NCBI GenBank assembly: GCA_025617745.1
Contig: CM046869.1
Coordinates: 13,287,168-13,351,167, forward strand
Origin: Heliocidaris erythrogramma
Taxonomy: Eukaryota; Echinodermata; Echinoidea; Camarodonta; Echinometridae
Direction of reading: 5' to 3'
DNA: 64,000 nt
Part shown: one piece after another, positions 13,386 through 37,200 of the stretch
How positions within the stretch are numbered: the first letter of the stretch is position 1
Layout of the letters: the number at the start of each line of letters is the position of its first letter
The notes under the pieces: generated by a model
Databases searched by the model: none
The model's input: only the letters and a program-made list of their open reading frames with translations
Told to the model about the DNA's origin: nothing
Position numbers and translations under genes: made by a program

Positions 13386-13389
13386 TAGA

Positions 13390-15090
13390 AACGATAGAAT
13401 TAGCACGTTTCTTCTTAAAGAAATTATATACTTTGTTGCGTCTCCTTTAGCCCACATTTTTAATATATCTCTGAATACTGGGAAATGTCCAGATTCCCTG
13501 AAAATTGCCAAAGTTAATCCTGTTTTTAAAAAAGATGACCCCCATGACATCAGCAATTACAGGCCCATATCTATTCTCCCCAGCATATCAAAAATATTGG
13601 AAACACTTATTTACAGTCGGCTTTTTAATTTTTTAGAAACTTATAATTTTCTTAATCCTAACCAATATGGTTTTAGGAAAAGACATTCCACCGACTTAGC
13701 ACTAATACAATTGTATGATAAAATAACGAATGCAATGTCGAACAAAGAACACATTATAGGAATTTTCATGGACTTATCAAAAGCCTTCGATACGCTTGAT
13801 CACCAAATTTTACTTAAAAAGCTGAACTTATATGGTATTCGATGAGTTGCTCTTTCATGGTTCGAGTGTTACTTATCAAACCGGAAACAGTATGTAGAAT
13901 ACGATAATAATTCTTCAAATTGTATGTCAATAAAATGTGGGGTTCCGCAAGGCTCAATATTAGGTCCCTTACTTTTTTTGATGTATATCAATGATTTAAC
14001 TAATACTACACCCTCGTTATCGTTTATATTATTTGCTGATGACACAAACATTTTCTGTTCACATAAAAACTTGGACACCTTAGTTGACACACTGAACAAT
14101 GAGTTACCAAAATTAGCGTTGTGGTTTAAATGCAATAGACTATCTCTTAATTTAAATAAAACTAACTTTATGTACTTCAAACACTTAAACTCACATGTCA
14201 TTGATTTTCCTTATAATATAAATATAGATAATATACCTCTTGAAAGGAAGAAAGATACAAAATTTTGGGGTATTATTATTGACGAAAATTTAAATTGGTT
14301 AGCCCATATACGCCATATAACTATGACTATTTGTAAGAATGTTGGTGTACTATATAGACTTAAAAAATATATTCCTTGCGAAACACTTTTCATGCTTTAC
14401 AACTCATTAATTCTACCTTATATATCATACTGCAATTTTGTTTGGGCCACTACTGCTAAAAGTAAACTCAATTCTATTTATTTATTGCAGAAGAAAGCTG
14501 TTCGCATATGCTCTGGGTCATCTTATTTATCCCACTCGAATCCTATTTTTCACAAACTAAAAACTCTAACAATTTTTGACATAAATTCACTTCAAAGCTT
14601 ACTTTTTATGTTCTAATATGTCAAAAATTTGCTCCCGGTTGCATTTCATAACTTTTACAATTTCAACAATTCTATTCATTCTTACCCTACTCGTTCCGCT
14701 ACAAATTTTCACCTTTTCAATCCCAAATTAATTATAGCTCATAAATCTATACGGCACCATGGTCCATACCTTTGGAATTCTCTTCCTGAAAATATAAAAT
14801 CATGCTCCACCCTTTACTCATTTAAAGCCAAAGTTAAAAAGATGTTGTTGTCAGAGTATCAAATGTGAAATTTCTGTGTGTATATTTCAACCCATATATT
14901 TTTTTTTCTCATCATCATCATCATTCATCACCATCACTATCATCTTCATCATCACCATCATCTTCATCTTCACCATCATCATCACATTTATTACCATCGC
15001 CTCCATTATCGTTTTTCATCATTAGTATTGATTTGCAATCATGAGTATATCTCCATTCTGCATTAGCTACTTGGTTTATTATGTTCCAGT
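13390..15090 (+). mobile_element. CR1/L2-like LINE, 5' truncated
   Basis: Reverse transcriptase and C-terminal region in three open stretches (to 13845, 13924-14616, 14629-14868). Motifs: NYRPISILPSISK, FMDLSKAFDTLDHQ, GVPQGSILGPLLF, FADDTNIFC, LPYISYCNFVWATTAK and the terminal GPYLWNSLPENIKSC. One in-frame stop near 13843 and another near 14616 break it. The 3' untranslated part has a CAT-rich run at about 14910-15000. The 7SL-type SINE follows at 15099. It sits inside the TA-flanked transposon. Confidence 0.82.
14905..15005 (+). repeat. CAT/CAC microsatellite
   Basis: CATCATCACC-type run in the LINE 3' region. The His-rich frame across it is an artefact of the repeat. Confidence 0.8.
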
Positions 15091-15098
15091 AGTTTTGC

Positions 15099-15280
15099 CT
15101 GGGCGTTGTGGCGTGCGCCTGTAATCCAGCTACCAGTGGAAGTTATAAACTGATTCAGCGAACCCAGGTTCGAGACTGAGTCACGTCTTTCGGATGGTGA
15201 CGTTAAAGGTCGGTCCCAGACGTAAATAATCATATCTGATTGATACACGTCTGTAAAAACCCAATTACACACACACACAC
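15099..15280 (+). mobile_element. 7SL-type SINE, copy 1
   Basis: Head GGGCGTTGTGGCG, then GTGGCGTGCGCCTGTAATCC, AGCTAC, and a B-box-like GGTTCGAGACTGAG. The body has GGATGGTGACGTTAAAGG and the end is (CA)n. GCCTGGG stands on both sides as a likely short target duplication. Confidence 0.8.
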
Positions 15281-15717
15281 GCCTGGGGCTGTCATGTTTT
15301 CAAGCACTTTGTCACTTATAATGACAGTCCTTCTTTTGCATGTATAAATTTTGATGAACCTTTAATTTATACAATTTTCTTATATGCATATTCCACATCA
15401 TTTGACACCCTTTTTTGATAATTTACCTTAGTCATTGGTTTTACTATATCATTTGTCTTGATAATTTATACCTTTTATATTACATGTTATATTTTGACTT
15501 GTTTTGTATTATGTATGCAGAAGAGAATAACTAATACTGGTTTTCTAATGGAGCCATTAAAAATGATTCTGCTGGTTTCTATTGGTTAGGGGGTCCACTT
15601 TCCATGGCAAACCAGTAGATATTGACCAGTAAAAAACAGTACAAACCAATAGGTAATTGACCAGTAGAAACCAGAAGACATTTTCTACTGGTTTTTCTAT
15701 GGGATTTTCGACCTGGG

Positions 15718-16445
15718 TAATCATAATTGAAGAAGAGGGTCGCTATTCATAATAAAATAAGAGGGTCGCCACTGATAATCAGAGAAGAGGATCACTATAC
15801 ATCATAATCGAAGAAGAGGGTCGCTATTCATAATCGGAGAAGAGGGTCGCTATTCATAGCGACCCTCTTCTCCGATTATGAATAGCGACCCTCCTTTTCG
15901 ATTATGATGTATAGTGATCCTCTTCTCTGATTATCAGTGGCGCAAATCCATTTTGAAATTTGGGGGGACACCACATGATTTATTTAACTGTCCGAAATGT
16001 CTATTTTCTGACAACCCCCCCCCCCCCAAAAAAAAGGTTATCACATTTTTGGGGTTCTATTTTTCCTCCAAAAAGAAAAGGTTCTTCAAAAAGGTGGATT
16101 TGCGCCCATTCTGATTATGAATAGCGACCCTCTTGTTTATGAATAGTAACCCTCTTCTTTGATTATGAATAGCAACCCTCCTCTTCGATTATGAATAGCG
16201 ACCCTTATGAATATTGACCTTTATGAATAGCGACCCTCTTTTCATATTATGAATAGGGACCCTTATGATCAACAACCCTGATTTGGTATTATGAATAGCG
16301 ACCCTTTCTCCGTATTATGAATAGCGATCCTTATTTCTTATTATGAATGGCGGTCGTGATGAATAATGACCCTTATGAATAGCGACCCTTTTGTCTTATG
16401 AATTTCGGTCCTTATGAATTTTTCTCATGAATAGCGGTCCTTATG
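15718..16445. repeat. Bidirectional ~24-bp repeat array, right arm
   Basis: Continues the array after the transposon: forward units to about 15855, then reverse units to the end (TATGAATAGCGACCCTC words). It includes the second spacer copy at 15936-16112. Confidence 0.85.
15936..16112 (+). repeat. Spacer insert within the array (copy 2)
   Basis: Starts CAGTGGCGCAAATCCATTTT and ends GGATTTGCGCCCATTCTGA. It is a diverged copy of 11752-11915 in the same orientation, with indels and a longer C run. Confidence 0.7.
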
Positions 16446-16469
16446 ACTAGCGAGCGGAACCCGTATAAG

Positions 16470-16965
16470 GACCCACAAATGCACAGAATGCAACATGTAA
16501 AAAGCCAGTTTTCAGGTTACTTTGCAACAAGAATGCCATTGATCTTTTCCATACAATGACAGATAGCACTACACTGTCTCAGTTTAAAAGTTTGTGTAAA
16601 AAACACTTTTTGACAGAGTGCAATCAGATACATGAATTTACAAGGTAGCCATATGTGACTGTGAAGTGTGTGTGAGTGTGCGTGTGTGTTTTTTGTTTGG
16701 GGTGGGGAGAGGGTTATGTTTGTTTGCATTTATTACGTTTTTATATCATTTGTACATTAGTTATATATACTCCTTGTAAATATGTTACACCTTGTAAATG
16801 TTACACAGGGCCATATACCGTATTCCATAGTTGATTGTACAAAGGGGCCCCCCGACCACAAGCTGTGCTTCACTGGGGTCCCAAACCTATCATTCTGATT
16901 TCTGCAGTTATTTCTTGTACTTGTTATGTTTGATTTGGTTTGAATAAACTAAACTAAACTACATC
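16470..16965 (+). mobile_element. LINE 3' end
   Basis: The coding tail reads TMTDSTTLSQFKSLCKKHF, like the FK-KLK end of CR1/L2 ORF2. The 3' part has GACCACAAGCTGTGCTTCAC and GAATAAACTAAACTAAACT at the end. Confidence 0.65.
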
Positions 16966-17764
16966 TAATTTTAATTCATTTCTTGTCATGTTATCATAAT
17001 TAGAAATCAGAGTGAGATTCACAAAAATCAAGATTTGCATTCATACATGTGCATAAATATATATAGAGGGAGAGTCTACAATTGTAGGTCTACATCTAAA
17101 ACAATGCAATATACATGTACTTCACAATTTATTTTCTCTCAGTGTTAGATTAAATGGCTACAGGAGTGCTAGAGCACATATGATCTGCACTGAACTCTGG
17201 AGACATCTGGACACTTTCAGGATCATAACAACATAGATATTGAAAAATCAAATTCAGGAATTTGAAAAAGAAACTGAACTTAATTCAACGGTAACGTTCA
17301 TAAAGTAGATTCTTTAACAAGACTTAATCATACGAACCTGTTCGATCTGGAAATGCAATTGCAATGAGAGGTAACACACGACTAGATAATGTCCAATAAA
17401 CGCGATCCTTGACCTGTTTCATTTGTTTACATTTCTGCTGCCTGACCTGTGATTCCAGCACCTTTGCCCTGCACTGCACGTATGCACTGAGCTGAGCTGA
17501 GCTGAGTTATAGGTCAGTGGGTGGAGGTGAGAGAGTTTGCAAGCAAAGACTCTACTAGTATTTTGACAGAATTCCACAAGCCTTGAAGCTGTAGTCCAGT
17601 CAATATACCCAGAAGGAAAAAACAGTATCAACTGGTCCCTTTAAAGCAGTTAAAACTGTTATCAATTTAATGATTAATCCATCCAGGAATAGAACTGTCT
17701 ATTTATTCTTTTATCTTGCCTAGATGTTTACAACTATTCCTCTTCCCTCCACTCATTCATGTCT
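16966..17764. other. Non-coding, no feature recognised
   Basis: Ordinary AT-rich sequence between the two genes, with no conserved open frame. A short GCTGA repeat lies at about 17489-17507. Confidence 0.5.
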
Positions 17765-17948
17765 TGTGTGTGTGTGTGTAATTGGGTTTTTACAGACGTG
17801 TATCAATCAGATATGATTATTTACGTCTGGGACCGACCTTTAACGTCACCATCCGAAAGACGTGACTCAGTCTCGAACCTGGGTCCGCTGAATCAGTTTA
17901 TAACTTCCACTGTTAGCTGGATTACAGGCGCACGCCACAACGCCCAGT
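17765..17948 (-). mobile_element. 7SL-type SINE, copy 2
   Basis: Reverse-complement copy of the family, full length, with the (CA)n tail at 17765-17779. GTGGAGGGAA occurs on both sides as a likely target duplication. Confidence 0.8.
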
Positions 17949-18801
17949 GTTCTTTCCCTCCACCCCTTATAAATCCACCCCGTATAGTCATTTCATCCCA
18001 ACTCTACAGTATGTGGCTTCCATATGTTTTCTGATGACTTACCTAGATCTTGTTACTTGATTAAATTTCTTGGTCCATCCTCTCTCTCTCTCTCTGTGGC
18101 CCTGTTTCATTGCACCTCTATGTTTTCACATGTGATTATCGCATATTGGCATGTCATCTTTATGACCATTATCTTTATACTACTGATCACAATACATCCA
18201 AATTATATCTATTTTCATAATTTAGGTTCTCTCAAAATATGAACATCTCCTCTTTTATGATTAAATGGTATCCAAACATAGCAAGCACTCAGAAACAAAA
18301 TGGAAAACCTTGCAATGTCACTGCTGATCACTTGAAAAACTTTGAAGACTTTAATAAAATGGAGCATATAGCTGTTGAATGATCAATGCATAATATGTAC
18401 ACTGACATGTGATCACAGAAGTCAAGTATTTTCAGCTACTACTTATTAACCAATTTTACATTTACTTTAATAACGACTTACATGGCAAGGAAACGAACAT
18501 TTAAATAAAGACATCATGGTTGTTTTTATTTTAAAGGCAAGATTGGCTAAATAGTAGCAGTAAAATGTACATCATACATGTATGAATTAAACAATATAAT
18601 ACAAATTTTAACTCACAACTCTCATTATTAATATTCTGTTCAAGTAATGAAAGAACCAAAAAAAAAGTCCAACATATATTTTATACAATTATGATAAATC
18701 TAAACTGCCTGTAATTCAATCACTCCATCTTTGAGTTGTGATGCATAGTTGGATTGAATTTGAAATCACAGTAATGATATATCAAGGCAGATGGACAACT
18801 T

Positions 18802-19315
18802 AAAGGGGAAGTCCACCTTGATTACAAGTTGGTGTTAGAAGAAGTAGAAAAATTAAAGAAACAGATCAGTGAATGTGTTTGAGCAAAACACTATAAGAAA
18901 ATAAGAATTTTTAAAGTTATAATCAATCAAACACAAATTGGCAAGTCCATGACATATCTTGCGAGCTCCTCTCCCATAATTTACCCTGTACCCCAAAAAT
19001 CATTCATTTCCATTTTCTCGAAAGAAAATATTCAATCATACATGCACCTTTAATAGATATAATCATTACTCATATGTTTTTACACAAAATCTGTATGAAA
19101 ATTAATGGGATTTTCTGTACTGAGCAATTGGGAGAGGAGCTCGCAAAATACGTCCTGGAGTTGCCAATTTTGCGTTTTATTGATTACAACTTCAAAAAGT
19201 CATAACTTTCTTATTTCTTGTCGGATTTCGCACAAGCTTTTCACCAATCTGTTTCTCTCATATTTCTTCTTTTATTCAAATCAACTCAAATGATACCAGG
19301 GTGGACTTTCCCTTT
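18802..19315. mobile_element. MITE with AAAGGGGAAGTCCACC ends
   Basis: Left end AAAGGGGAAGTCCACCTTGA and right end CAGGGTGGACTTTCCCTTT are inverted repeats. The two halves are partly complementary (AAAATTAAAGAAACAGAT and ATCTGTTTCTCTCAT). About 514 bp and no coding. Relatives: 32097-35066, 45165-45690 and a fragment at 54390-54465. Confidence 0.8.
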
Positions 19316-19782
19316 ATTAACATACATCCTAAGGGATAATGGCAGAGGCAATAAGTCATAAGAAAATTGAAACATAAGCGTTGTTCATACAAACCACCAT
19401 GACAAAATAATATGACATAATTGTAGCGTGCTTCAAATTTCTGCATCTGATATTATTGTTCTTAAGTATACGTAGTATTACTATCACATCTCATGTGTAT
19501 GAAAACTGCCATTTTGTAATCATTCTATGTTGTACAATATTGTAAATATGTTATATTTCTCATACTCCGGAAGGGGTCGAAAGAAATAAAGTTCAAAGTT
19601 CAAAGTTCATAAAGCAGAGATTATAGGGAACACACTAGGGGATTTGTTGCATGCAACTACCTGTTTTTTTCACCCCCACGTCATTAATAAACATGTAAAA
19701 TGCACTGAATTTTGCTGCAGCATATAATTATTATTTTATTATTTATTTTTTTTTTGGGGGGGAGGGGGGAAGGGGCTTTGGA

Positions 19783-20315
19783 AGCTTAGCGAAACGGGGT
19801 GGCGCAAAAAGACGTGTCCGGAACGCAAACGGCAAAATTGCTGGTGATAGTGGTGAATAAAAAAGTTGTATTTTGACAATTTAAAGAAAATTTTAGTAAA
19901 ATTAAGACCAATCAAAACAGTAGAGGTATTTTAACCTGCTCCATGGCTTAATGAAATGTTTCTACATAAAATGATGATTTTCAACAATATAATAATAATA
20001 ATAATATTGGATATTTATAAAGCGCTCATATCCACTATGAATGGTGCTCAAGGTGCTCCAATATTACCCCGGCTCTAGCTAGGCTACCGATTTCGGTGCT
20101 CACAGCATTCAAGGAATTAATTCCTGCCGGTACCCATGTAACACCTGGGTGGAGAGTGGCAAATGTAGATTAATGTCTTGCCAAAGAACAGTAGTGCCGC
20201 GCCGGGGTTCGAACCCACGAACTTCCCATCTCCAGTCCAGTGTTTAAACCACTCGACTACGATGCACTTTGCATTCTGGACACATCTTTTCGGGCTATTA
20301 TATTTCGCTAAGCTA
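19783..20315. mobile_element. AGCTTAGCGAAACG MITE, split by a SINE
   Basis: Left AGCTTAGCGAAACGGGGTGG and right ATTTCGCTAAGCT are inverted ends. The inner words GACGTGTCCGGAACGC and GGACACATCTTTTCG also pair. The SINE at 19988-20267 sits inside. Relatives: 26849-27051, 40500-40779 and 42303-42578. Confidence 0.7.
19988..20267 (-). mobile_element. tRNA-headed SINE, near full length
   Basis: On the minus strand the head reads GCATCGTAGTCGAGTGGTTT, then GTGGGTTCGAACCCCGGCGC, like a tRNA A box and B box (Ser/Leu type). The body includes TCTACATTTGCCACTCTCCA and the end is GAGCGCTTTATAAATATCC plus (ATT)n. It is the best copy of this family in the window. Confidence 0.78.
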
Positions 20316-20682
20316 CGGTGTTGTGTGTGAACAAGTATTTATTATAAATTCACTGTTACATAACTGTATCTCTACTAGTATAAGAAGCTAGAAATAATAA
20401 TAATAATACCGTAATAAATAACAGAAGTTACTAATGTAACTAAAATGATTGCTTCAAAGGGGACAACATTCAATTTGGTATCAGTCAAAACTGAATTCAT
20501 AAACAAAATATTAGATATCTAAATTCTTACAAGTTTACTGTAAAACCTACCAGTTTATCTCTATCTTAGGACAATTGTGACCAAGAAAATAGGCCTACAT
20601 AAACCTTTACATTGCATCATTTACATGGGCATGGCAACTGTAAACTTTTACATTCACTTTATCCACAATAACATTCATGATG

Positions 20683-20715
<33 letters not shown>

Positions 20716-20942
20716 GTTTGTAATAAAGCAGTTTCTTATAAGCAGTTATCAAATGATGCACTGATGGAGTATCAGTTTTGAAATAATTTCTAATTTTAGA
20801 ATAAAGGAACAGTCAAGAAATTATGATAATCATGAGAAATTGAGTGCCTCGTAAATGACATCTGCCTGAAGTTCTCCCTATGGCCTTATTCACATACAGT
20901 CATACTGGTAATCCCAGGGTTTTTTTTAAGTGTACTCAGCTC

Positions 20943-21450
20943 ATATTTTGTTATTCAAACATCTAAATATCTTTCATAGATTAATATTTTTTTAAATCTT
21001 TTTCTCAAACCTGCTAAGCTCCACCCTAAAAAAATGCTTCAGATTTAATTCCTGCAGTGATATCATGTGTCAATCATAAGTGAGCTAAGGAGAGACAGTG
21101 GTATGTAGCTTTGTCAGAGATGACCATCTGTTCTAGTAGACCATACAATGCCTACATAGTAGTTGCTATGTCAGACATGCTGTAGCATCACCAGGAAAAG
21201 AATGGTAATGAGGAGGTATTGTTTGAAAGCATGCAATTCTATTGTGAGCATGTGCTGAGCTGGCGGAAGTTACATTCCACTGTCTATTATAGAATGTTAG
21301 TGTAGCTGACTGATGATTGGCAGATCATGTCATTGCAGGAATGAGATCTGGAGACTTTTTTTTGGGTGGAGCTTAGGAGGTTGGAAAAAATATTTTAAAA
21401 AAAATTAAAAATCTATGAAACATATCTAGATGTTAGAATAACTGAATATT
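20943..21450. mobile_element. Long inverted-repeat MITE
   Basis: The left arm (20943-21076) and right arm (21320-21450) pair over about 130 bp with gaps; for example GCTAAGCTCCACCC pairs with GGGTGGAGCTTAGG. The middle of about 240 bp is non-coding. Confidence 0.7.
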
Positions 21451-21658
21451 AGTTGTATGCATCCCTGCAAATCAACAGCAAATAACTTGCATAATGGGTT
21501 GCGTTTGGAAACCTTTAATGTATCATACAACATACAGATAAGTGAGTACGCTTAGGATCTTTGCTGCATGCAGATTTTTTCATCCCAATTTAGCATTTAC
21601 TTACCCATTTAAAAATAAATGCTGCCCTCTTACCACAGTAATTTTGAACAAGCCTTAA

Positions 21659-21902
21659 CCCCTTCCATGCCACCAAGTACTTGAACAATTATCATAAATT
21701 ATATTTGAAGAGCTAAATTCTGATTTAAAATGTTTGGGTTCATTGCTGAACTGGGTATAAACTATCCTCCATGGGAATAAACTGCAGTATGATAATATTT
21801 GTTTCTGTGTTGGGAAGAACATCATGGCCTTTATTAGTCCAAAAAATATTGTTCAACTCTCATATTCTTTGGCGTAATTTGACGCCCATGGCAAGGAAGG
21901 GG
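21659..21902. mobile_element. MITE with CCCCTTCC ends and TTAA duplication
   Basis: Starts CCCCTTCCATGCC and ends CATGGCAAGGAAGGGG, with TTAA on both sides (21655-21658, 21903-21906). TTAA targets fit piggyBac- or Kolobok-type elements. A second copy is at 28931-29172. Confidence 0.78.
21830..21835 (-). promoter_or_regulatory. Possible poly(A) signal for the CatSper-type gene
   Basis: AATAAA on the minus strand, about 230 bases after the stop codon and within the MITE at 21659-21902. It is only a hexamer match. Confidence 0.25.
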
Positions 21903-22070
21903 TTAAGAAGTTGAGAATGTGAAAACTACAATATTCTCGCATTAACAGTGTCTTGAGGACAGAAGACGTCGGTCTAGGAGCAGGGAAGGGGTTTAAGGAG
22001 TTGAGAATGTGAAAACCACAATATTCTCACATTATGAATGTCCCGAGGATAGAAGACTTCGATCTAGGAG
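21892..22070. repeat. 90-bp tandem duplication over the end of the CatSper-type gene
   Basis: Two copies (from about 21892 and 21982) share GGAAGGGGTTTAA-like, GTTGAGAATGTGAAAAC and GTCTAGGAG-like words at a period of 90. The downstream copy on the minus strand is 3' sequence; the other contains the real stop codon. Confidence 0.75.
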
Positions 22071-22231
22071 TTCCTTTGAAAGAGTGCCATCATGGATCGA
22101 GTGCGATGTACCTGAGACTTTTTGATATAGTTGAGATAGATGACAAAGACTACTGCTCCCATAAGGACGCTGACCGTAGCAAAGATGATCATCTGTGACA
22201 AACCAGGGAGAGGGGCTCGGTCTACAAACAT
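22064..22231 (-). CDS. CatSper-type gene, last exon
   Basis: Reads MFVDRAPLPG, a hydrophobic membrane segment MIIFATVSVLMGAVVFVIYL, then a short basic tail NYIKKSQVHRTRSMM and stop. Acceptor ACCAG. The stop lies in the 90-bp tandem duplication. Confidence 0.85.
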   Translation of the reverse strand: MFVDRAPLPGLSQMIIFATVSVLMGAVVFVIYLNYIKKSQVHRTRSMMALFQRNS

Positions 22232-25200
22232 CTGGTATAACAAAAAATAAAAAATAAAACTCAAAACACTGGTGACTAATGGAAAGAGATAAGATGTTTT
22301 ATAGAACAGGTTCAAGAATGTAGGCAATGTTATTGGAAAAATGACATCACGTGACCGTGCATTATTCTTTCCCACCGTGCAAAAGAGTTCCCATCAAAAA
22401 TTGATAACGTACGTTCGATACCTTGCGATATTATTGATATCGTTTCCTCGTTCACAAATTATTTGTGCACAACAAAGTACAGCGCGTAGTGCTAGCGCCT
22501 AGCTAGCTACTGCGGTAGGTACCTAGCAAAACTAGTATCTGCTGGGTGGCCCAGCCCACACCGCCCGGGCCTGAGCAAAGCAGTATTCTGCAGATTTCAG
22601 CTAGCGGTACCATATCGGCCGGTCCATGATCCACCCTGCCCTGGGCTTGGTAGCTTGCTTCAGTAAGGAGTCATCATCTACATGTAGGATGCTTTAACTT
22701 TGTGGGACAACTTCCAGTTTGCCCTTTAACTGTCAATACACTTATTGTTCTTCCTTACGTAGGCTGGAATTTATTTTGTACAAAATTTGAAGGCGGTACA
22801 ATCCAAGCGCCAGGAGTCTAGTAATGTTGACTAATTATTTTTTTAGCTGTTGTGTGTTCGTGTCCATCAAGTTTAGCAAAGTTTGGACAATATACTTTTA
22901 ATACATGGTTGGGAGTGCGTGGTGCGATCTGGCAACACAAAGGTTCAGCTGTTTCAGTGCGGGCATGTAATCCCTGCGGTAAAATGACAATTCAACTACG
23001 CGATTTCATTGCGTTTTAAGGTAGCACACACCAGAGGTAGCTTCTAACTACGCTGTTGACCTTACGAGCATAAATGAGCAGAGTCCACGTTTGGGTGGTA
23101 GTGAAATTTTTCGTGTGTAAATTTTTTTTTTTTTTTTGGCTTACGCATTCTATCCAACAGACGGGCGCGCCCGGAAATTGAACAGGATTTATTTTTAGTC
23201 TTCCAGGATTATTCTCTTCATAAACAATTGAAAAATAACTGAATAGTTAATTATGAATAAGTCCATGGTTGGGTAATGTTGACACACAGTCCTCGTTTTC
23301 CGGTGGAAACACGTATGCGTGTGTGTGTGTTGTGTAGCATGTAGATGCTATTCCATTAGATCATTTAGCTCACCTGAAACTCATCCTCCAGTATGCAATA
23401 TGAGAAGCCACCAATGACTGTCAGTCTAAAATGATACAGCTGTGTGGCCTGAAATGTAAAGCAGTAGAACATGTTTATATCTGATCTAACTCCAATATGA
23501 ATGTATCATTTAACCATAGTATCAGTCTGGAATGGTACAGATGAGTAGTCTACTGTGTAAAGCAACCGTAGTACAGGTTTATATATGATAAAACTATGAT
23601 GTGAACATAAAACGTCATGACCCCAACCCTCTACTTGAATCTCTTCATTGGCTCCCTATAAAAGAAAGGATTCTCTTCAAGATACTATTGTTTGTTTTTA
23701 AAGCCTTTCATGACCAAATGCCATCAAAGATTGCATCACATCTCACAACCCATCACATCCTAATCTTCGCTCTTCTAGGGACCCATTTCTTCTCACCATC
23801 CCCAAAACCTGTAATAAAGCTGGCGATCGTACATTTACTGTGTCTATACATCCAAAGAATGGAACAATATCCCCTCTTTCATAAAATCAGCTAATGCCAC
23901 AGACCAATTGAAGAAATTCTGGAAAACGTATCTATTCCTGGAAAAGTAAAAGTTAAACCTTTTTCATTTCTTTCAAACTTTAAGCTTAATAAGTTAATTT
24001 TTATTCTATGTTATGGATTATTAATTTTGTATTAATGTTAATGTAACATTGTTATGCATTATTAATTGTATTAATGTATTATTAAGTTTGTAAACACTGT
24101 GATACAGTTGTACCATGGAGAGTAATATATGCTAAGTTCTTATATAAATATTATTATCATTGACTAATTAGGTATCAGCCTGAAATGGTACATTGTACCT
24201 GATAAAACTCTGATGTGAACTTTTTCATTAAGCTACAGTATCAGTCTGAAAGGGTACAGGCTGTTCAGACTACAGTTAGAACAGGTCTATTTCTGATCTA
24301 AAGATGATGTGAACATATCATTAAGTTTGATATTCGTCTGAATGGAAAAAGCTGATAAGCATGCGGTGAAAAGAGGAAGTACAGGTTTATATCTGATTTA
24401 AATCTGATGTGAACATAAAACATTAAATTATTGTATCAGTCTGAAATAGTACAGTTGTGTTATCTACAGCGTAAAGCAGTAATATGGGTGTATATTTGAT
24501 CTATGATGTGAAAGTATCATTAGACTATAGCATTAGTCTGAAAAGATACAGCTGTACAACCTACATTTTAAAGCAGTATAAATACAGGTCTATATCTGAT
24601 TTAACTATGATGTGAAAGTATCATTAGACTATAGCATTAGTCTGAAAAGATACAGCAGTACAACCTACATTTTAAAGCAGTATAAATACAGGTTTATATC
24701 TGATCTAACTCTAATCTGAGCGTAAATGCATATGAAACCAAAAGGTCACTTGAACATACAAACAATTTCTGTTGGGAACCTAGGTGTCATCCAATCGTCT
24801 TTTTTCATTGTACTTCATACATAGTTTTTAAGGCTGGTCATGTATTAATGATTTGATAACAATACCAGTCTATCCAGGTAATGTATGATACTCAAATGAT
24901 TTGTGTTAATAATAAGCCTTTGTAACCAGTTTTAATGGATCCAATACATTTTCTACATAGACCAATGAATTCATCATCATCATTATCAAATTTGTTGATA
25001 TGAACCATCCTTGTAACTAATAAATGCTCATATGGACGTAACAGTAATAAAAACAAAGAGTTTATACTTACGAGGAATATGACGACAAGTTGATTAGGAC
25101 TATGCAGGTTATTGACAGGGATCCCTACAATCTTTCCAATCTCAGGCAGATATTCTATTTCAGCCGCTATATCAAGCAAAATCACAAACATCAAAATGTT

Positions 25201-28200
25201 CAGGTTTTTTTAATGCTTCTACAATAAATCAGTAAAATCATTGACTTTGGTTAATATTACTTCTAGAAAGAACACATTTTCACAAATTACTGTCAAGGAG
25301 CTTATACATTTGAGAGATGTCACTCCAAGATTATAACATTTTTCATGTGCCTTTTGGGATGAAAATATAAAGGAAAAAATAGAGCACATTGTTTTGGGTT
25401 GTGTACTTGAGGTATGTCACTTGGTTTTCAGGGGGGGGGGGGAGGCATGGGCCAGGCGTGCCCCCTTAATCCGCCAGTACTCAAACCATAATGATATAGC
25501 TACAACATCTTCCTACATGAGTAGTCTCAGATGGGCTTTTGATTGCATATATATATATATACAAATTATAGCATACAAAAGTTATTAAGTCCTAGGATGG
25601 ATTCTTACAAACTCATATCTTCTGAAGGTATCTCCTTCTAAATTATATAAGCTTCAAAATGAAAACAAATAAACTATGTTCACATGATACACCATTTCGT
25701 TTAAACAATTTTTGTAGTATTTCAAGAACAAATTTCGCTTTACAATACAACCACCACTATATATTGTATACATCTAGTATAACACTCATTGTGGATTTCA
25801 CTTTTTTTCATGAATGATTAAAGGTGATGTTGAGAAGAAAAATCTATTAACTGACCTTGAATGACATAGTCTATCCTGTTATTAAGCTCCTTGATGGTAA
25901 GAATGTAAGGTTCAGCAAGGACCTGATCCTCTTTACCTCTCTGACTAATCACTAGATGAGGGTAGAGATTCTCAGTGTACGTGATGCGATAAACCTGTCA
26001 AAGTTAACAAGAAACTCACAAATATGGGCTATGAGAGCAAAAGGGCATGCATGAAATCGGTTACGTGTCATTTTTCCAAAGATTCATAATTCTGAAGGTT
26101 CATTTTTCTGAAGGTTCGTAATTCCGAAAATGAAATGGGTTCATAATTCCAAAAATAAAACAGGGTTCATATTTCTGAAGGTTCGTACTTCCGAAAAGTT
26201 ACGGAGGGCTCCATTGCATTTTCGGAATTACAAACCTTTGCAATTATGAGCCCTTTTTCATTTTCGGAATTACGAACCTGCGGAATAACGAACCTCCGGA
26301 AAAAACTAGTACCCCCCATGGAATCAATGTCTGACATGTACTCCATATGTGAGGTTTTCATATCACCGTTTATTTTCCTCACATTCCATAATCATTAATC
26401 CCAAGCATGTGGGATGATGTTTGCTCGAACTGATTTTATACATACATGTACAAGCTGATTTTTTTATTAGGTGATCGGTACCCTGGAGATGCAAAGGGCA
26501 CATATAAAGCCAGGAGCCAAAGCCTCTTGATCCTGGGGCTGAAACGGGGTTTCCCCTACACTTCCAACTTTTACTTCTTCCCTCTGCCTAACTCTTCTCT
26601 AATATCTCTTCAACACAGTTCACGTTTCTACTTATCATCCTCTTCTATTTAAAAAAAAAAGATAAATAAATAAATCAAATCAAATCAAATATGTCCGCAA
26701 GGTATTTTATCTTCTTTCTACCCCAGTGTATAAGTGAGTATCCGGTATGTATGCTCCCTTGTGGAGTGGAGAATGTGCATTGCATGTGAGAACTAGCAAT
26801 CCAATCCAATGACCTGAGTATTATCATAAGAGCTTAGAAACATGAGATAGCTTCGCGAAATGTAGCGGCACAAAACAAAACGAGTCCGGAAGGCAAAATG
26901 CATATTGTTGAAAATCCAAATTTTATTGCATTGACTCATGAATGAGTGGTTAAATATAATATGACGACCGTTATTAGGGATCATATTACTCATCTACGAT
27001 TTTGCCGTCTGCGTTTCCGGACGCGTCTTTTCGTGCCACTCCGTTTCGCTATTAAATGTAGCTATTAAATTGGTACCTTTTCCCTGCAGTCTGTGAAGAG
27101 CTGTAATGATGACAATCTCATCTCATCGGTACATTGGCATTCCTTTCTAGACAGCTTACCTGCACACTGCTTGTAAAAGCCACTATTCTGAAATGATTCA
27201 ATTCATTTAGTTGAAATAACTTTTAAAGAGACTGTACAATGGGCATTGGCGGATAAATAATGTTGCATCTTCTGCCAGATTTTACATTTCTGCACAAATG
27301 TAAAATGACATGAAAATGATAATCCAATTACTATTTTTTTTTTGGATATGTGTTCTTCAATAAACAATTTTCTAAATCATAATGAATGCTAAAGATTGAA
27401 TTTTATACTGGAAAAAAAAAATCAAGATCATTTCAGCATCTGAAAAACATAAGTATTCAAATCTAAATAAAAAATATAGTTGTTATATTTAAACTTCATA
27501 TCTAGCTTGGAGTCTTAAAACAAAACTAGAAATGTCCATTGCCGCACATTGCGAATGTATCCCCCGGCAATGGCAGCGATTTTTGCGTCCTCCTTTTGTT
27601 CGAGGGAGGAACAAAGAACCTCCCCCTAGCTCCCCTCCCTCAAACAAGAGGATGACGTAGAGATCGCCACCAGCGGCCCAGGCTATTGTCAACATTAGGA
27701 GCAGCATCACCAAAACAATATGTGTGTAGAATAGAGTATAATAGAAAATTTGAAAGAAATCTGTCAAGAAATGTAACCTGCAGAGTGTACACAAGATATC
27801 CACTAAAATATGACCTATATGTATATGATAAGAAAAAAATGAGTAAAATCATTACAGCTTGCAAACTTACCTTTGATACTTCATAGTGGTCATTGAGTTT
27901 TGGCTGACTAGGGTCAGCATTGTAGACATTGTTGGTCAGTGGAATAGCGATACCCAGATCAGATGGTGGTCTATAGTTGACCTAAGGTAACGGTCAAAAT
28001 AAAAAATATATTTTATAAATGGTATCTTCATTTATGCTATAGCATCAATCTGACTACAAAGCATTTGTATGAATGTAAGTCTCAGGAATTGGGAAAATAC
28101 AGGAAATACCAATACTAAATTGATTCAAAAGAGATTTTGGAATATTGACTCACACCTGGGGTTTTAAGCATCCATTTTTTCCTTGAGGAGCAAAGAGTAT

Positions 28201-31200
28201 AAAAGATTTTTTATAAAGACATCTTGGAATACTGGGGGGTGTTTCACAAAGAGTTAAGTTTGACTTAAAGTCATGCGTAAGTGCCAATGCGCATACGGTA
28301 TTCTCATTTGTAGATTACCCAACAGCGCCGCCCCTGAGCATGATCTTACCAATGCGGTGATGTGTCATATACCGCACGCAACAAGGAATTTAAGTGCGAC
28401 TTTAAGTCAAACTTAACTCTTTGTGAAACACCCCCCTGGACTTACATCTAGGGGCTGTACTGTATCAATTTTCTTGATGAGTAAAGGATATATGATTCTC
28501 TTGAAGACATACTGGGGGGGGGGGGGGTTTCATAAAGCTGTTCGTAAATTTACGCATGACTTTATGAACGACGTGAATATGAAGTGCCAGATAGGATGCC
28601 CAACAGTGCCCAATGTTTTTCCTGATGTTTTAACAAAGTGTGACTGTATTTCCAATAACCTCAATTCAATTATTGCAAAAAAGATACCTTGCATTAAAAA
28701 TATTGATCATAATAAGAATGTTAATCTACATCTGCACAGTTCAACTTTAGTTGATGCAGTTAAAAATGATTGAGCATCCCATTTGGCTTGTCACATTTAA
28801 GTCATTCGTAAAGTCATGCATAACTTTATGAACAGCTTTATGAAACCCCCCTAGAATACTAAAATTAAACTTAGGGCTGTTCAGTAGTATTTCTTTCTTG
28901 AGGAGCAAAGGGATTAATAATTCTCTTTAACCCCTTCCATGCCACCAGATTTTTGAGCAATTGTCAAAATTGTACTTTCAATGGTTGAATATTAACTCTC
29001 AATGAGTTTTTTCTTGAGCTAAATGGGCAAAGATATATCGCATAGGAATAAACATTATATTGAAGGCACAGGTTTTGGTACGAGGAAGAATTTTCACGTC
29101 ATTTTGAGTCTAAATGAAATCTTCAACACTCCAATATTTGGGCGGGATTTGCCGCCCATGGGATGGTAGGAGTTAAAGACATTATGGAATATGGAATTAC
29201 ATCCGGGGCTTTAAGTATTTGTTTTCCTGATGAGCAAAGAGTATTGGTTCTCTTACTGACTTACAGCTAAAGTAGTGAGCAAAGACTGATTCTTTCTATT
29301 CTTTGGTGAGCCATAAAGGAAGTCTTGTGATGAGACTGGTGGATCATAGACGAAATGAAGTCTCTTTGTCGGTGGGCAGGTAAAATGTATAGTCAATGTG
29401 AATGAGACAGAGTCACACCGAAGAGAAGCTGATGGGATACTGATCATGATGGATGATACACCCTGGAAAAAAAACATCATGACAATTCATGTAGTTACCG
29501 CTGTACTATATTGGTTATAATTTTTCAAAAACTAGTTTGCTTCATGGTTTTAATCACATCGCTGCTAAGCAGACTCTGACTTCAGATTTAGATTTATTGA
29601 CTGATTTCAATCATATTAACATAATACTGTAGTGCATAAATAAATACAATAAGAATAATATAACAATGGTGTTTTTCCATAGATATGGGCACATAATTAT
29701 ATATCAATAAATAAATTATATGATGCGCAAATATTGACCCAAGTGATGTTGAAAACAGTTGGACATGTTTGGAAGCAAAGCTTATATATTTCTCTTTGAA
29801 AGAGATCTTGAAGGCATATAATTCCACTCTATTAGTGTCATTAAGATGGTAAAAGTGAGGGAGAAAGAGAGAGAGAGAGAGACAGAAAAGGAGCGAGAGA
29901 GAGCGGAAGAAAGCAGGGCTGCACAGACGACACAAGATTTTTAGTAAGAAACTCAATCCACAAGTTCATTAAAAAAACAGGGAATTAAATTATGACAAAT
30001 CTTTAAAACCTAGCATAGCAAAAGATCTTTTTAAAGAACTATCTAAAGTTACATTGTAATGAGGTGTAGACTGTTTGAAGAGAAGATAATGATAATCAAT
30101 GTTCTATCTCTTGAAACTGATAATCAGCACTTTACATGTAGATTGCACTTTAGAGTTGCAATGAAGCACTTGATGACCTACTTAAATAAGTCTTGAAGAT
30201 GGGGCAACATAACAAATCATATTATTTGCTGCATAAACATTGGAGAACTTTGCTCAACCACGAACTCTCCATAACAAATCATATTATCTGGTGCATAAAC
30301 ATTGGAGAACTTTGCTCAACCACGAACTCTCCCATTGAATTAACTTACTTTATTGTGTACTCTGTGTCGTACCGTGATAGTAGCAGTTTCCATGCCATAT
30401 CTATTGTACGTACGTGATGTCTGCACTCGTATCAGGGAAGGATTGTTAATCTGTACAGACATCATAACCTTCTCAGACTGCCGAACTATCAAAACAAGAG
30501 ACAACATTCAGTCAATGTTAACAATAGAAATCAGTAATGATCAATGTCATGCCTGGGTAACAACTCATTGATATGAATCAAAGCCAGCAGGGTCCACTGG
30601 CACGCCGCAGGTTCACACCTGCATAGGATAGCGCGATCTATCTTAGCACTGTCTGCAAAGTATGCGAATAGGCGCACTCTAGATCACGCTATCTCTCATG
30701 ACCACCCCCCAGAGGTGGTCCGGTTTGTGGTCCGGTTTGGGATCACCGTGGACCACCATGGAGCGTGCCGGAACGATTACGCCACGTTCTCACTAGCTTA
30801 GAGGTGGAGCGATCTAGCGCGCACTAGAGCACGCTTCCCCTTGTAATGAGAACGGGGTCATTGAGTATGTCTCAAGAAGGATAGCTTGCTATCACTATCT
30901 TCACCTGATAAATCCTGTAATTATTTGTAATTGGAAATTCTCAAAAGGGAATTACAAAGGACTTGGGGTTTTTTTGGGGGGGGAGGAGGTAGCGGGATCC
31001 TCTTAATACTTCAAAGACTCATGGAAGATCATAGTCTCTATCAAGAGGAATATTTGTTGTTGTGATACTCATAATTTTAAAATAAACATTTTTTTTAATG
31101 AATTGTTACAGTCGATTCAAATATTGTTCCATGTGTTATTTGTGCATACTAAAGAAGGCCTTCAGCATGTAAAGGGATCTTTGGAGAGTGCAGGAAAGAA

Positions 31201-34200
31201 GGGTATATTATTTACACGACAGGATACAAGTTGGTGTACCCAAACCATTCTTTAGCACAGCGTGTAATACTGCCATCTCATGTTGTTAGTGAACCCTGTA
31301 AGGGAGGTGTATATAGCTAGATTTAGAAATAGACTGATCCATCCAATGAGTTGCAACCACTGGGAGTCACATGTAGAGGTTAATTCTTTGGAAATGGGCC
31401 ATTCTTTGTAAAGTGACACTCTCGGTCACACACGTGACCATCGAACTCATTGAACATCGAACTCATTTCCTCATTGCCGGAAAATCAGACTTCATTTTAT
31501 TGATTTTTCTTTATTACCAGTTTCTTACATGAAAAAGATTTCCTTGTCCTTGACAAGAAAAAGTCATTACCTAACCATAATGTTTTTGCAGAGACATTTA
31601 AAAACGCCCTTTTTTTTAAAGTGGTCACACACGTGACCGACCCAATTTTCACCTCTTAAAGAAAAGAATGCTCACTAATTTATGGAAAATTGCTTTCAGA
31701 GCAATCCCACCATACAGTAATGAAAAGTGGAAACTTGCACTCCAAGGGAAATACGAGAAAAGCAGGTTTGAATACCAACAAGTAAGACCCTTTCTGGTGC
31801 GAGGTCACACACGTGACTGACCTAATGTTGACCTCTGAAAGAAAATGATGTACCCTCATTTAAAATAATTCTTCTAATACTTCTACTACACGACAGATAC
31901 TGAAATACTGGAAACTATTTTTCTGGATTTCGGTCACACACGTGACTGAGAATGGCCCAAACATGCTTCTGACATTGATACTCTCTGTACCTCAAATCAT
32001 ACTTGGCCCCATCTTTCACTCTAATATCAAATACATAATCAAAGTAGTCACTATGTGTATGAATAGATGTATTTGTGCAGTGATATGTAAACATTTAAAG
32101 GGGAAGTCCACCCTGATATCAAGTTTGCTTTTAAAAACAAGAAAAACTAGAAATGTGCATTGCTGGTGCCGCGCAATGCGAAATGTATCCCCCGGCACTG
32201 GCAGCGATTTGATGGAGGGACAAAGACCCTCCCCCATCCCCTCCCTCAAACAAAAGGATGGTGTAGAAATTGCCGCCAGTGGCCCGGAATATTGTCAACA
32301 CTAGGAGCAGCATTACCAAAACGATTTGTGCAGATTAGAGTATAATGCATTTTTATAGAAAATTCGGAAGAAATATGACCTCAGAGCGCACATAAGCCAT
32401 CCACTAAAATATGACCTTTGATCCTATGAAAGACGGAACACTCGAGGCAGCATCACCAAAAACTGTAGAGGTGTAATCTATAATGGACCTACATACAAAA
32501 TCTGAAAGAATTGAGTTAACAAATGTGTCCTCCAGAATGCATGCAACGAAAATATGACATTTGACCCTAACAACAACCTGAATATGACATTTGACTGTAT
32601 AGAAAGTGGTACAGTACCAGCAAACAATTTAGATGTGTAGGTTTCACTAAGACATATCTTCATATAAAATTTGAAAGAAATGTGTTGAGAGATATACCAA
32701 GATACATCTCCATATAAAATTTGAAAGAAATCCATCAAGAAATGTGGCCTGCAGAGTGTAATCACGCCATGGCCTGAAGTATGACCTTTGACCCTATAAA
32801 AGACGGAACACTGGTGGCAGCATCACCAAAAACTATAGGTTTTTAGATTACACCAAGATACATCTCCATACAAAATTTGAATGAAATCCGTTAAGAAATG
32901 CAGAAGTAAGAGTGCACAAAAGGGACAAATGAGCTTTGACCCTATAAAGGACGGAACAATGAGGGCAGCATCACCAAAAATTAAATATGTGTAGATTATA
33001 CCAAGATACATCTCCATACAAAATTTGAATGAAATCCGTCAAGAAATGCAGAAGAGTGCACAAAAGGGACAAATGAGCTTTGACCCTATAAAGGACGGAA
33101 CAATGAGGGCAGCATCACCAAACAGTAAAGATGTGTAGATTATACCAAGATACATCTCCATACAAAATTTGAAAGAAATCCATCAAGAAATGTGGCCTGC
33201 AGAGTGCACTCACGCCATGCCCTGAAGTATGACCTTTGACCCTATAAAAGACAAAACACTGGTGGCAGCATCACCAAAAACTATAGGTTTTTAGATTACA
33301 CCAAGAGACACCTTCATGCAAAATTTGAACGAAATCCGTCAAGAAATGCAGAAGTAAAAGTGCAAGGAATGGAAAAATGACCTTTGACCCTATAAAGGAC
33401 GGAACAATGAGGGCAGCATCACCAAACAGTAAAGATGTGTAGATTATACCAAGATACATCTCCATACAAAATTTGAATGAAATCCGTCAAGAAATGCAGA
33501 AGTAAGAGTGCACAAAAGGACAAATGAGCTTTGACCCTATAAAGGACGGAACAATGAGGGCAGCATCACCAAACAGTACAGATGTGTAGATTATACCAAG
33601 ATACATCTCCATACAAAATTTGAAAGAAATCCATCAAGAAATGTGGCCTGCAGAGTGAACTCACGCCATCCCTTGAAGTATGACCTTTGACCCTATAAAA
33701 GATGGGACACTGGTGGCAGCATCACCAAAAAGTACAGGTTTTTAGATTACACCAAGGGACACCTTCATGCAAAATTTGAACGAAATCCGTCGAGAAATGC
33801 AGAAGTAAGAGTGCAAGAAATGGAAAAATGACCTTTGACCATATAAAGGACGGAACAATGAGGGCAGCATCACCAAAAATTAAACATGTGTAGATTATAC
33901 CAAGATACATCTCCATACAAAATTTGAACAAAATCCGTTGAGAAATGTGGCCTGCAGAGTGCACTCACGCCATGCCCTGAAGTATGACCTTTGACCCTAT
34001 AAAAGACGGAACACTGGTGGCAGCATCACCAAACACTATAGATTTTTAAATTACACCAAGAGACACCTTCATGCAAAATTTGAACGAAATCCGTTGAGAA
34101 ATGTGACCGCCAGAGCGCACACAAGAGTACACACAAGACATCTATCAAAATATGACCTTTGACCCTATAAAAGACGGAACACTGGGGGCAGCATCACCAA

Positions 34201-37200
34201 AATCTATAGGGTTCCAGATTTTACCAAGAGACACCTTCATACAAAATTTGAACAAAATCCGTTGAGAAATTTGACCGCTAGAGCGCACACAAACTATCCC
34301 CCAAAATATGGCCTTTTACCCTATAAAAGACGGAACACTGGGGGCAGCATCACCAGAAACTATAGGGGTCCAGATTTTACCAAGATACACGTCCACAGGA
34401 AGTCTGAAAGAAATTCGTCGAGAAATGTGACCGCTAGAGCGCACACAAGAATGTGACGCCGCGGCAGCGGCGGCGGCGGCGAAACGCTGCTGAATCCAAA
34501 GTATCCTCCGGCATACTGCCGGGGATACAATTAAAGAAACAGATCAACGAAAGTTTGAGCAAGATCCGATAAGAAATATTGAAGTTGTGAATTTTTGATT
34601 GGGTAATTAATCAAAAATGAATTTGCAACTCTGTTACGTGTCTTGTGAGGTCCTCTCCTATTTGCCCTGTAGTAAAAAAAAATAAATCATGAATTGACTT
34701 TTTCTACAGAAGATATTTAATCATACATCCAACCTAGATATAATCATTGCACATAATATGTTTTTACACAAAACCTGTATAAAAACAAATGTATTCCTTC
34801 AACAACAACTAAGAAATCTAATAACATCTGATTCTTTTAAAAATCATGTTAAAACATTTCTGTTACATTCTTTACTAATTTCTACATGCGCCCTGAGCAC
34901 TTCACAGAGTGGATTTGGCACTGTATAAGTTACATTTATTATTATTATTATTATTAAAATGGAAATTTATGAAATTTTCTATACAATAGGAAAGGAGCTC
35001 ACAAGATATGTCACCGAGTTGCCAATTTGTATTTGATTGATTACAACCTCAAGAATTCATAACTTCATCTCTGTAGTTCTGTACCATCATAACTTCACAA
35101 AGTAAGTTTATCCTCAGCAGTCTCTCCTTCCCCACATTCTCTGGAGCTCTCTTCCTTTCTCATCCACTTCTCAAAGTCTAAATTCTATTACTCTTCCACT
35201 TTCTCATCTGTTTCGGTCTCTCAATACTCCCCTCTCTCTACACTCCCTCTCCAGGGGAGCATTTCATCCTGTGTTTTGTCTGTGATTTTCTACCGACAAC
35301 TGTTATAAGCTACTGAAATCCTTGCATCTGATTGGCTTGAGAGCAAATTTGTCGGTAAAAATCACTGACAAAACCTCATTTCATGAGGTGGACCTTGTTG
35401 AGGGAGAGAAGGGACCAAGTGGGGGACGGTCCGTCTGTGAGGGAAGGGTCCCTCCTCCCAGGGTAGGAGAAAGTTTGGCATCTTAAAAATCTGAAAATCA
35501 AGTTTTAGTTGCATCTTAGGTACAATTTTGAAGATCAAAAAGGTCTTTTTTTTGTCAAGCGGACTGCTAGTCACCCTAGTCGCAAGGACCCCCTCCCTAG
35601 TTACAGTCCTGCTCTCTATTAATCTATATTCTCCCTCTGTATGTATGGTTCTTTCCAAACCATGTTAACATTGTGTCTTATACATGTACAATGATGTGCA
35701 CTTTTGATATAACCTATTGATGATGTCCCCAAATTCTCAAACCAATTAGAATGCATCAATGAAACAATGAAACAATGAAACAAAGGCATATACAAAGGAT
35801 GACAAATGCATCCCCCCCCCAAAAAAAAGAAACATGCATGAATCCAAACTTACCCTCTCCAACATAGCTTGCAGAGACCTTGAAGGTAAAAGTATCACCA
35901 ACATCCATGTATGTTGTTGGTTGCTTAGCAACACTGGGGTGAGGGGTCATGACATGCTGACATGGTGACTCCTTGAGAAGTAGGTCATCTGAAATGTGAA
36001 TATATGCAAACATACAAACATATGAGCACAAAGAAAGGAAAAAGAAAGAACAATATACTGTAAAAGCTGATATTTTCACGTACAGATATTTCTGCAAATG
36101 GCAAGGTCTCAGACGATTTCGTGAGTTGTTGTTTTCGCAGTTTGCCAAATGATCAAGAATATTGTACGTAAGGTTTGTATCATGTTATTTAAATGGCTGT
36201 CTTAAAAGACGATGTACATGTGTATACAAGGTTTTGGACTGTCATGTACATAAATTCTACTACGTAAATGTTGGTTAGAGACTTCAAAAATTGGCTGGAA
36301 TTTCACTGTTATTCTAGCTCAAAGCTAAAATCTCATGCCTCAATTCATCATCTAGTAGAAGTTATTTAATATGATTTTGTATTGGATTCCAGCACAATAT
36401 TTCAGTTTAGGTGTCAAATTATTGAATTTCTCTGATTATTCTTCCTTCTGAAACAGGTGTAGTCATGTGACTCACGTTCGCGATCACGACAGATTTTACG
36501 ATCGCGATCGCAAGTCATGTGACCACACATGTTTCAGAAGGAAGAATAATCATTAGAAATTGAATAAATTGACACCTAAACTGAAATATTGTGCTGGAAT
36601 CCAATAAAAAATCATATTAAATGAAAGAATATAAATATCTTCTGCTAGAGGATAAATTGAGGCATGAGATTTTAGCTTTAAGCTAGAATAAAAGTGAAAT
36701 TCAAGATAATTCTTGAAATCTCTAACCATCATTTACGTAGTAGAATTTATGTACACATTATAGTAAGTGCTAACATACTGGGCGTTGTGGCGTGCGCCTG
36801 TAATCCAGCTACCAGTGGAAGTTATAAACTGATTCAGCGGACCCAGGTTCGAGACTGAGTCACGTCTTTCGGATGGTGACGTTAAAGGTCGGTCCCAGAC
36901 GTAAATAATCATATCTGATTGATACACGTCTGTAAAAACCCAATTACACACACACACACATAATGTAAGTGCTAACATTATACATGTAGTAAGTGCTAAC
37001 ATAACTGGGCGTTGTGGCATGCGCCTGTAATCCAGCTACCAGTGGAAGTTATAAACTGATTCAGCGGACCCAGGTCACGTCTTTCGGATGGTGACGTTAA
37101 AGGTCGGTCCCAGACGTAAATAATCATATCTGATTGATACACGTCTGTAAAAACCCAATTACACACACACATAATTAAATAGAACATTAGGCTTTAAGTA

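Follow-up and report, generated by a model that had tools for sequence, protein, structure and literature searches.

A short interspersed element headed by 7SL RNA sequence in the sea urchin Heliocidaris erythrogramma

A 64,000-nt stretch of the genome of the sea urchin Heliocidaris erythrogramma (C17:13287168-13351167 in an assembly of 1064 Mb and 26 contigs; hereafter the window) carries four copies of a short interspersed element (SINE), which begins with a head like 7SL RNA and ends with a (CA)n microsatellite tail. The copies, together with the parts of the copy at 36777, which include putative RNA polymerase III (pol III) boxes and a hairpin that a long interspersed element (LINE) may recognize, are as follows.

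15098 to 15280, plus strand: SINE copy; the first base is C instead of A (at 15098); (CA)n tail
17765 to 17948, minus strand: SINE copy; A replaces C at nt 36
36761 to 36776, plus strand: flank TAGTAAGTGCTAACAT, found again at 36987-37002, with a 14-nt part of it at 36965-36978, after the tail
36777 to 36960, plus strand: full-length SINE copy, its 173 nt identical to the consensus of 43 copies
36777 to 36822, plus strand: 7SL-derived head (H2-H3-H4), the 5' domain of the Alu fold of the signal recognition particle (SRP); 43/44 to the host's own 7SL gene L002
36788 to 36798, plus strand: putative pol III A box TGGCGTGCGCC, SINE nt 12-22, within the 7SL part
36823 to 36949, plus strand: 3' part from an older tRNA-type SINE, SINE nt 47-173
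36846 to 36856, plus strand: putative pol III B box GGTTCGAGACT, SINE nt 70-80, originating in the tRNA-type parent
36896 to 36932, plus strand: 3' stem-loop CAGACGU...ACGUCUG, a candidate recognition hairpin for a LINE reverse transcriptase
36945 to 36960, plus strand: microsatellite tail TACACACA..., read directly from the sequence
37004 to 37171, plus strand: decayed second SINE copy; 12 nt are gone, including the B box, and A stands for G at nt 16

All four copies named in a preliminary description of this DNA are present, although the one at 17765-17948 lies on the minus strand and the one placed at 15099 starts with a C at 15098. The start said to be common to the four is exact at 36777, but the 37004 copy has the change at nt 16 and the 12-nt loss. 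Relative to the 36777 copy, identity is 99.4% over 172 nt for the 15099 copy, 99.4% over 173 nt for the 17765 copy and 92.5% (nt 1-173, gap counted) for the 37004 copy. The first 36 nt agree with the host's own 7SL RNA at all 36 positions in the 36777 copy and at 35/36 in each of the other three. A 21-nt flank motif ending GTAAGTGCTAACAT stands three times around the 36777/37004 pair (window 36756-37002), suggesting a local duplication of the SINE with its flank. The repeats of TAGTAAGTGCTAACAT are probably a target-site duplication that was afterwards drawn into a local duplication.

At least 18 loci in this genome exceed the gathering score of the Rfam family Metazoa_SRP (a lower bound, from 26 scored candidates) and represent the host's own 7SL set. 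Twelve of the 18 (L002-L010, L013, L014 and L017) lie in two tandem clusters on contig C16 (C16:41246598-41251229 and 41697545-41716167), mostly 2.0-2.2 kb apart; one SINE copy sits within the second cluster (L009:2405-2577). In its usual form the 7SL 5' end reads ACTGGGCGTTGTGGCGTGCGCCTGTAATCCAGCTAC-TTGGAAGT, and the SINE has the identical 36 bases followed by CAGTGGAAGT. These 36 nt are exact in 10 of the 16 7SL loci scored for them, all ten on C16, and the other six agree at 33-35 positions; L017, with a disrupted 5' end, and L018, in which the 5' end was not located, were left unscored.

Over the consensus of 43 copies, SINE nt 1-46 align with 7SL nt 1-44 at 43/44 positions with one 2-nt loop insertion. 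This local alignment scores 76, compared with a best of 26 among 500 shuffles of the SINE, and stops at SINE nt 46 and 7SL nt 44. SINE nt 47-173 score 13 against 7SL (shuffled maximum 24), and the 43-copy consensus thus holds no further 7SL sequence. As the alignment ends at 7SL nt 44, the central S domain is missing and the element is not a plain 7SL retrocopy. The genome (1064 Mb) has 2192 exact instances of the head 33-mer (nt 4-36; reversed control, 0), which 11 of the 18 fetched 7SL loci also hold; in 30 fetched loci with this 33-mer, ACT, the start of 7SL, precedes it 23 times. The shuffles and the zero reversed controls rule out a chance resemblance, and the 7SL-like head of the preliminary description is upheld. 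The likeness to human 7SL RNA reported there holds insofar as the head is 7SL, but it is indirect, the source being the host's own 7SL gene.

In an Rfam scan of 36700-37250, which covers two of the four copies, Metazoa_SRP is the top match at both (34.3 bits, E 2.9e-7 at 36777; 27.9 bits, E 2e-5 at 37004), each below the gathering score of 70; when the whole window was scanned at gathering thresholds, there was no match. The five matches at E<=10 in the scanned segment include no tRNA or 5S family. Sub-threshold Rfam matches to mir-1268 (overlapping the head; E 0.07 and 2.6), Fusobacteriales-1 (3' part of the SINE; E 0.04), SCARNA7 (CA tail), Afu_199 and EBv-sisRNA-1 were set aside.

In the Rfam alignment, the 7SL part includes H2, H3, the UGUAA turn and H4 and ends at the AGU that closes H2. 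Judged from the aligned letters, what was captured corresponds to one structural unit, namely the 5' domain of the SRP Alu fold. Folding alone predicts the hairpins H3 and H4 in both the SINE head and the host's own 7SL. Two box-like sequences, at nt 12-22 and nt 70-80 and 47 nt apart, may direct pol III; the first, TGGCGTGCGCC, is a putative A box by the box consensus. The 5' domain of 7SL is the main contact for SRP9/14. In each arm of Alu, the 5' bipartite stem-loop binds SRP9/14 and is important for jumping (PMC12062377).

The body of the SINE has a different history from its head. A search with the body under a different upstream part gave 25 matches, L097 among them, which led to a parental family, for which 166 candidates gave 40 scored matches. 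SINE nt 47-173 agree with the parental copies at 116/127 (L098), 117/127 (L099), 110/119 (L097) and 107/122 (L100) positions. The local alignment with L098 begins at SINE nt 47, and L098 has nothing that matches the SINE head (score 10; shuffled maximum 23). The alignments accordingly place a sharp head/body junction at SINE nt 46/47, which reads as a clean head swap. Like the SINE, the parental copies (L097-L100) have the body of nt 47-173 with the 3' hairpin, readable in L098 and L099, and in these two a (CA)n tail; unlike the SINE, they have a 5' part with a tRNA-type A box and no 7SL, and fewer and more diverged copies were found. The A box TGGTCTAGCGG of L098 and L099 agrees with the tRNA consensus, and the B box (GGTTCGAATCT in L098, GGTTCGAACCT in L099) lies 56 nt past it; in L097 and L100 the boxes are altered. 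The GGTTCGAGACT box of the SINE, previously described as following the head as in Alu, therefore originates in the older tRNA-type SINE (as GGTTCGAATCT in L098) and not in 7SL, to which only nt 1-46 belong. The parental head 33-mer has 250 matches at <=3 mismatches, 16 of them exact (reversed control, 0). Pairwise differences among the four fetched parental copies are 4-13%, and the parent thus looks older.

Other repeats were met in the same searches. A dispersed repeat (L067, L082, L087, L088, L091, L092 and L096) has tRNA-like TTAGTC(T/C)A(G/T)CGGTAA and CAGCGGACCCTGGTTCGAGGCT, and has in common with the parental SINE a part of the head (20/22 nt in L092) and the B-box arm. In L074, the letters upstream of an old body copy were considered as an older head and rejected, since similar letters stand without the body in L079 and L089 and look like another repeat. 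Flank hairpins at L079:1125-1274, L079:2606-2755 and L074:2682-2809 show sub-threshold similarity to the miRNA families MIR2606 and MIR4371 and are probably inverted-repeat elements.

The family is abundant. A 49-mer across the junction, specific to the SINE, occurs 3883 times at <=3 mismatches (reversed control, 0), giving a genome-wide copy count that bears out its description as a SINE family; as this probe and the parental 33-mer differ in length, the ratio of their counts is only a guide. For divergence and flank comparisons, a match was taken if it began at nt <=3, ended at nt >=170 and had >=30 nt of flank; deduplication by flank left 43 distinct full-length copies. The sample favors intact copies, 23 of the 43 coming from contig C1 via an exact head match. 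Substitution divergence from the consensus is 1.88% on average (median 1.73%; indels excluded), and BLAST identity to the 36777 copy is 81-100% with gaps counted. The family looks young by these figures, and its many dispersed, near-identical short copies are those of a SINE. CA repeats stand at the 3' end of 42 of the 43 copies. The 3' hairpin CAGACGU...ACGUCUG appears in both the minimum free energy and the centroid structures, and a hairpin with a microsatellite tail would fit LINEs of the stringent type.

Candidate traces of retrotransposition are seen at a minority of the copies. Flanking direct matches scoring >=10 occur in 7/43 copies, compared with 0.36 expected, and exact flanking matches of >=8 nt in 6/43 (controls, 0.8%). 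The clearest flanking matches, of 13-16 nt, are those of L042, L043, L078 and the window copy at 36777. In addition, 5'-truncated copies running to the (CA)n tail exist, as left by target-primed reverse transcription. Five SINE copies (L026-L030; C1:7720599-7721355) are arranged head to tail at an exact spacing of 181 nt, and a repeat beside this array also precedes the 36777 copy (aligned over window 36499-36765).

The best explanation is that this young SINE arose by a head swap, in which the 5' part of an older tRNA-type SINE was replaced by nt 1-44 of the host's own 7SL RNA; we regard this as very probable. The chimera would most likely have formed by template switching between 7SL RNA and the RNA of the parental SINE. 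Transcription by pol III could then use the A box of the 7SL part with the B box of the tRNA-SINE part, and the transcript would begin at the 7SL-derived 5' end ACTGGGCG and continue into SINE nt 47 onwards. By binding the 7SL 5' domain, SRP9/14 may hold the RNA at ribosomes, close to LINE protein as it is being made, as argued for Alu. A LINE reverse transcriptase would recognize the 3' hairpin and the (CA)n tail, and copying would proceed by target-primed reverse transcription.

Several observations weigh against this explanation. Neither ARAGORN nor Rfam calls any of the four parental heads (L097-L100) a tRNA, and the label tRNA-type therefore rests on the boxes. Shuffled sequence folds with energies as good as those of the head and the whole RNA (whole RNA, z -0.58), and the structural argument thus rests on homology. 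The distance between the boxes, 47 nt in the SINE and 56 nt in L098 and L099, exceeds the 30-40 bp given for A and B boxes in SINEs (PMC8466645). A clear target-site duplication is absent in 36 of the 43 sampled copies, and among the seven with a match, L040 is of low complexity and window 36777 matches across the local duplication. Some copies lie in tandem arrays or within a larger repeat. Two pattern searches aimed at a LINE sharing the 3' end yielded isolated matches, two in one and three in the other, and no recognizable LINE end, with patterns that would miss a LINE sharing more of the SINE or tail than assumed.

Three alternatives were weighed. The head could be an ordinary tRNA- or 5S-derived one that resembles 7SL by chance or through A-box motifs, and the part with the B box does descend from a tRNA-type SINE. 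Yet the head has 36 consecutive bases identical to the host's own 7SL and 43/44 over the 5' domain, Rfam places neither tRNA nor 5S in the two-copy segment at E<=10, and the parental tRNA-type head does not align with the 7SL head; for nt 1-46 this origin is refuted, and we give it practically no credence. The comparison with 7SL, tRNA and 5S, on which the preliminary description had let its reading depend, thus falls to 7SL. It is also conceivable that a fuller 7SL-derived SINE came first and later lost a 3' Alu segment and gained tRNA-SINE sequence, the minimal head being secondary. Alu and hagfish SINE1 indeed retain both 5' and 3' 7SL segments (PMC7245038). The consensus, however, extends no further into 7SL, and the 30 fetched of 66 matches with an altered head end have either a 5' truncation or a 7SL head changed by an indel or deletion; they have no different head in common. 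The copy sampling would not catch a copy carrying a large extra insert, and such an ancestor is judged improbable.

In the remaining alternative, larger repeats carrying the SINE as a passenger, or tandem duplication, account for most of the copies, which would then not be those of an independently recognized SINE. The 181-nt array on C1 speaks for such a course, as do the window pair 36777/37004, which is a local duplication, the repeat shared between the surroundings of the array and the 36777 copy, and the minority status of clear target-site duplications. With the SINE masked, the flanks of 12/43 copies match the flank of another copy, and four (L032, L036 twice and L083) have the same larger repeat on both sides. 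On the other hand, for 31/43 copies no other sampled copy has a matching flank, the 7SL start ACT precedes the 33-mer in most fetched loci, and 5'-truncated copies keep intact tails. Passenger spread as the main route is therefore rated unlikely, if a little less so than the fuller ancestor, and the head-swap origin of an independently mobile SINE is retained.

Further repeats lie in the window. Two opposite-orientation copies of one sequence at ~20205 (plus strand) and ~43785 (minus strand) have tRNA-like GAGTGGTTTAAACACTGG and GGGTTCGAACC boxes and are probably a further tRNA-derived repeat; another sequence at ~45926 (plus strand) has a tRNA-like GTGTGGCGCAATCGG start and a GGGTTCGAG box. 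By eye, 15700-16460 contains numerous diverged copies, some direct and some inverted, of a GAATAGCGACCCTCTTCTCCGATTAT-like unit. At 13300-15000 (plus strand), two long open stretches in one frame, with a stop between them, resemble a LINE reverse transcriptase (SKAFDTLDHQ..., FADDTN).

The host is an echinoderm, as had been supposed from the window alone. Its genome encodes bindin (Pfam PF02084; model positions 105-237 at E 2.1e-68, with an adjoining second piece at positions 1-53); the same search gave 0 matches in 14 control genomes, a weak control, as those named are prokaryotes. Bindin is found in the sperm of echinoderms and is known best from sea urchins. 7SL-derived SINEs were long regarded as a quirk of a single mammalian lineage. 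An origin independent of the mammalian group was stated in 2021 for hagfish alone (PMC8466645), and the hagfish family was presented as the first evident SINE1 outside Euarchontoglires (Kojima, 2020; PMC7245038). The open literature, covered mostly at title and abstract level, yielded no SINE derived from 7SL in echinoderms or other invertebrates, with Repbase, Dfam and subscription papers outside the scope. Within the same coverage, papers on echinoderm SINEs, the sea urchin MetaSINE and invertebrate 7SL SINEs describe none derived from 7SL beyond those of mammals and hagfish. The passages on 7SL excerpted from tick, moth and schistosome papers make no rival claim, and a literature search with the SINE body string returned no SINE paper.

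By all signs, this 7SL-headed SINE originated independently. The wider proposition, that it is the third independent birth of such a SINE and the first in an invertebrate, and that the captured unit is exactly the 44-nt SRP9/14-binding 5' domain, is one to which we incline slightly. If true, the 5' domain alone, without the 3' Alu segment, would form a transferable module, able to take the place of a tRNA-type head and to trigger a burst of SINE copying with some LINE that is not the mammalian L1. A further origin with the parental SINE still in the genome would make the question of why 7SL is used a comparative one, with replicates, and a capture limited to the 5' domain tests which part of the Alu fold matters for mobilization in trans, and by which LINEs.

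The element is a SINE1 by the broad definition, a 7SL-derived 5' end as in the usage of PMC7245038, since its head agrees with the host's own 7SL at 43/44 positions. It lacks the full Alu domain with 5' and 3' 7SL segments, a trait common to the families described in that paper and outside the broad definition, and thus stands as a SINE1 without the 3' 7SL segment. With Alu, B1 and FLAM-A of Euarchontoglires it shares the 7SL 5' domain at its 5' end and, as putative ones, pol III boxes in the head, but Alu and B1 are entirely 7SL, with a poly(A) tail and L1 as partner (PMC7245038), whereas the urchin SINE is a chimera of 7SL and a tRNA-SINE with a (CA)n tail and no poly(A). The Tu SINEs of tree shrews and the bushbaby GarnAlu likewise join a 7SL-derived part to a tRNA-derived one, but within the mammalian SINE1 lineage (PMC7245038), whereas the head of the urchin SINE comes from the host's own 7SL gene. 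The closest parallel is SINE1-1_EBu of the hagfish Eptatretus burgeri, also a young non-mammalian family with thousands of copies (2363 full-length in hagfish) and a microsatellite tail, which arose by joining 7SL to the 3' part of an older tRNA-headed SINE (PMC7245038). It differs in having 96 nt of 5' and ~44 nt of 3' 7SL, forming the Alu domain, and an RTE-type tail of AAC repeats (PMC7245038), compared with 7SL nt 1-44 only, a B box from a tRNA-type SINE and a (CA)n tail in the urchin. From the hagfish family it was inferred that the Alu-domain structure is necessary (PMC7245038), and a head made of the 5' domain only qualifies the inference that the whole of that structure is required.

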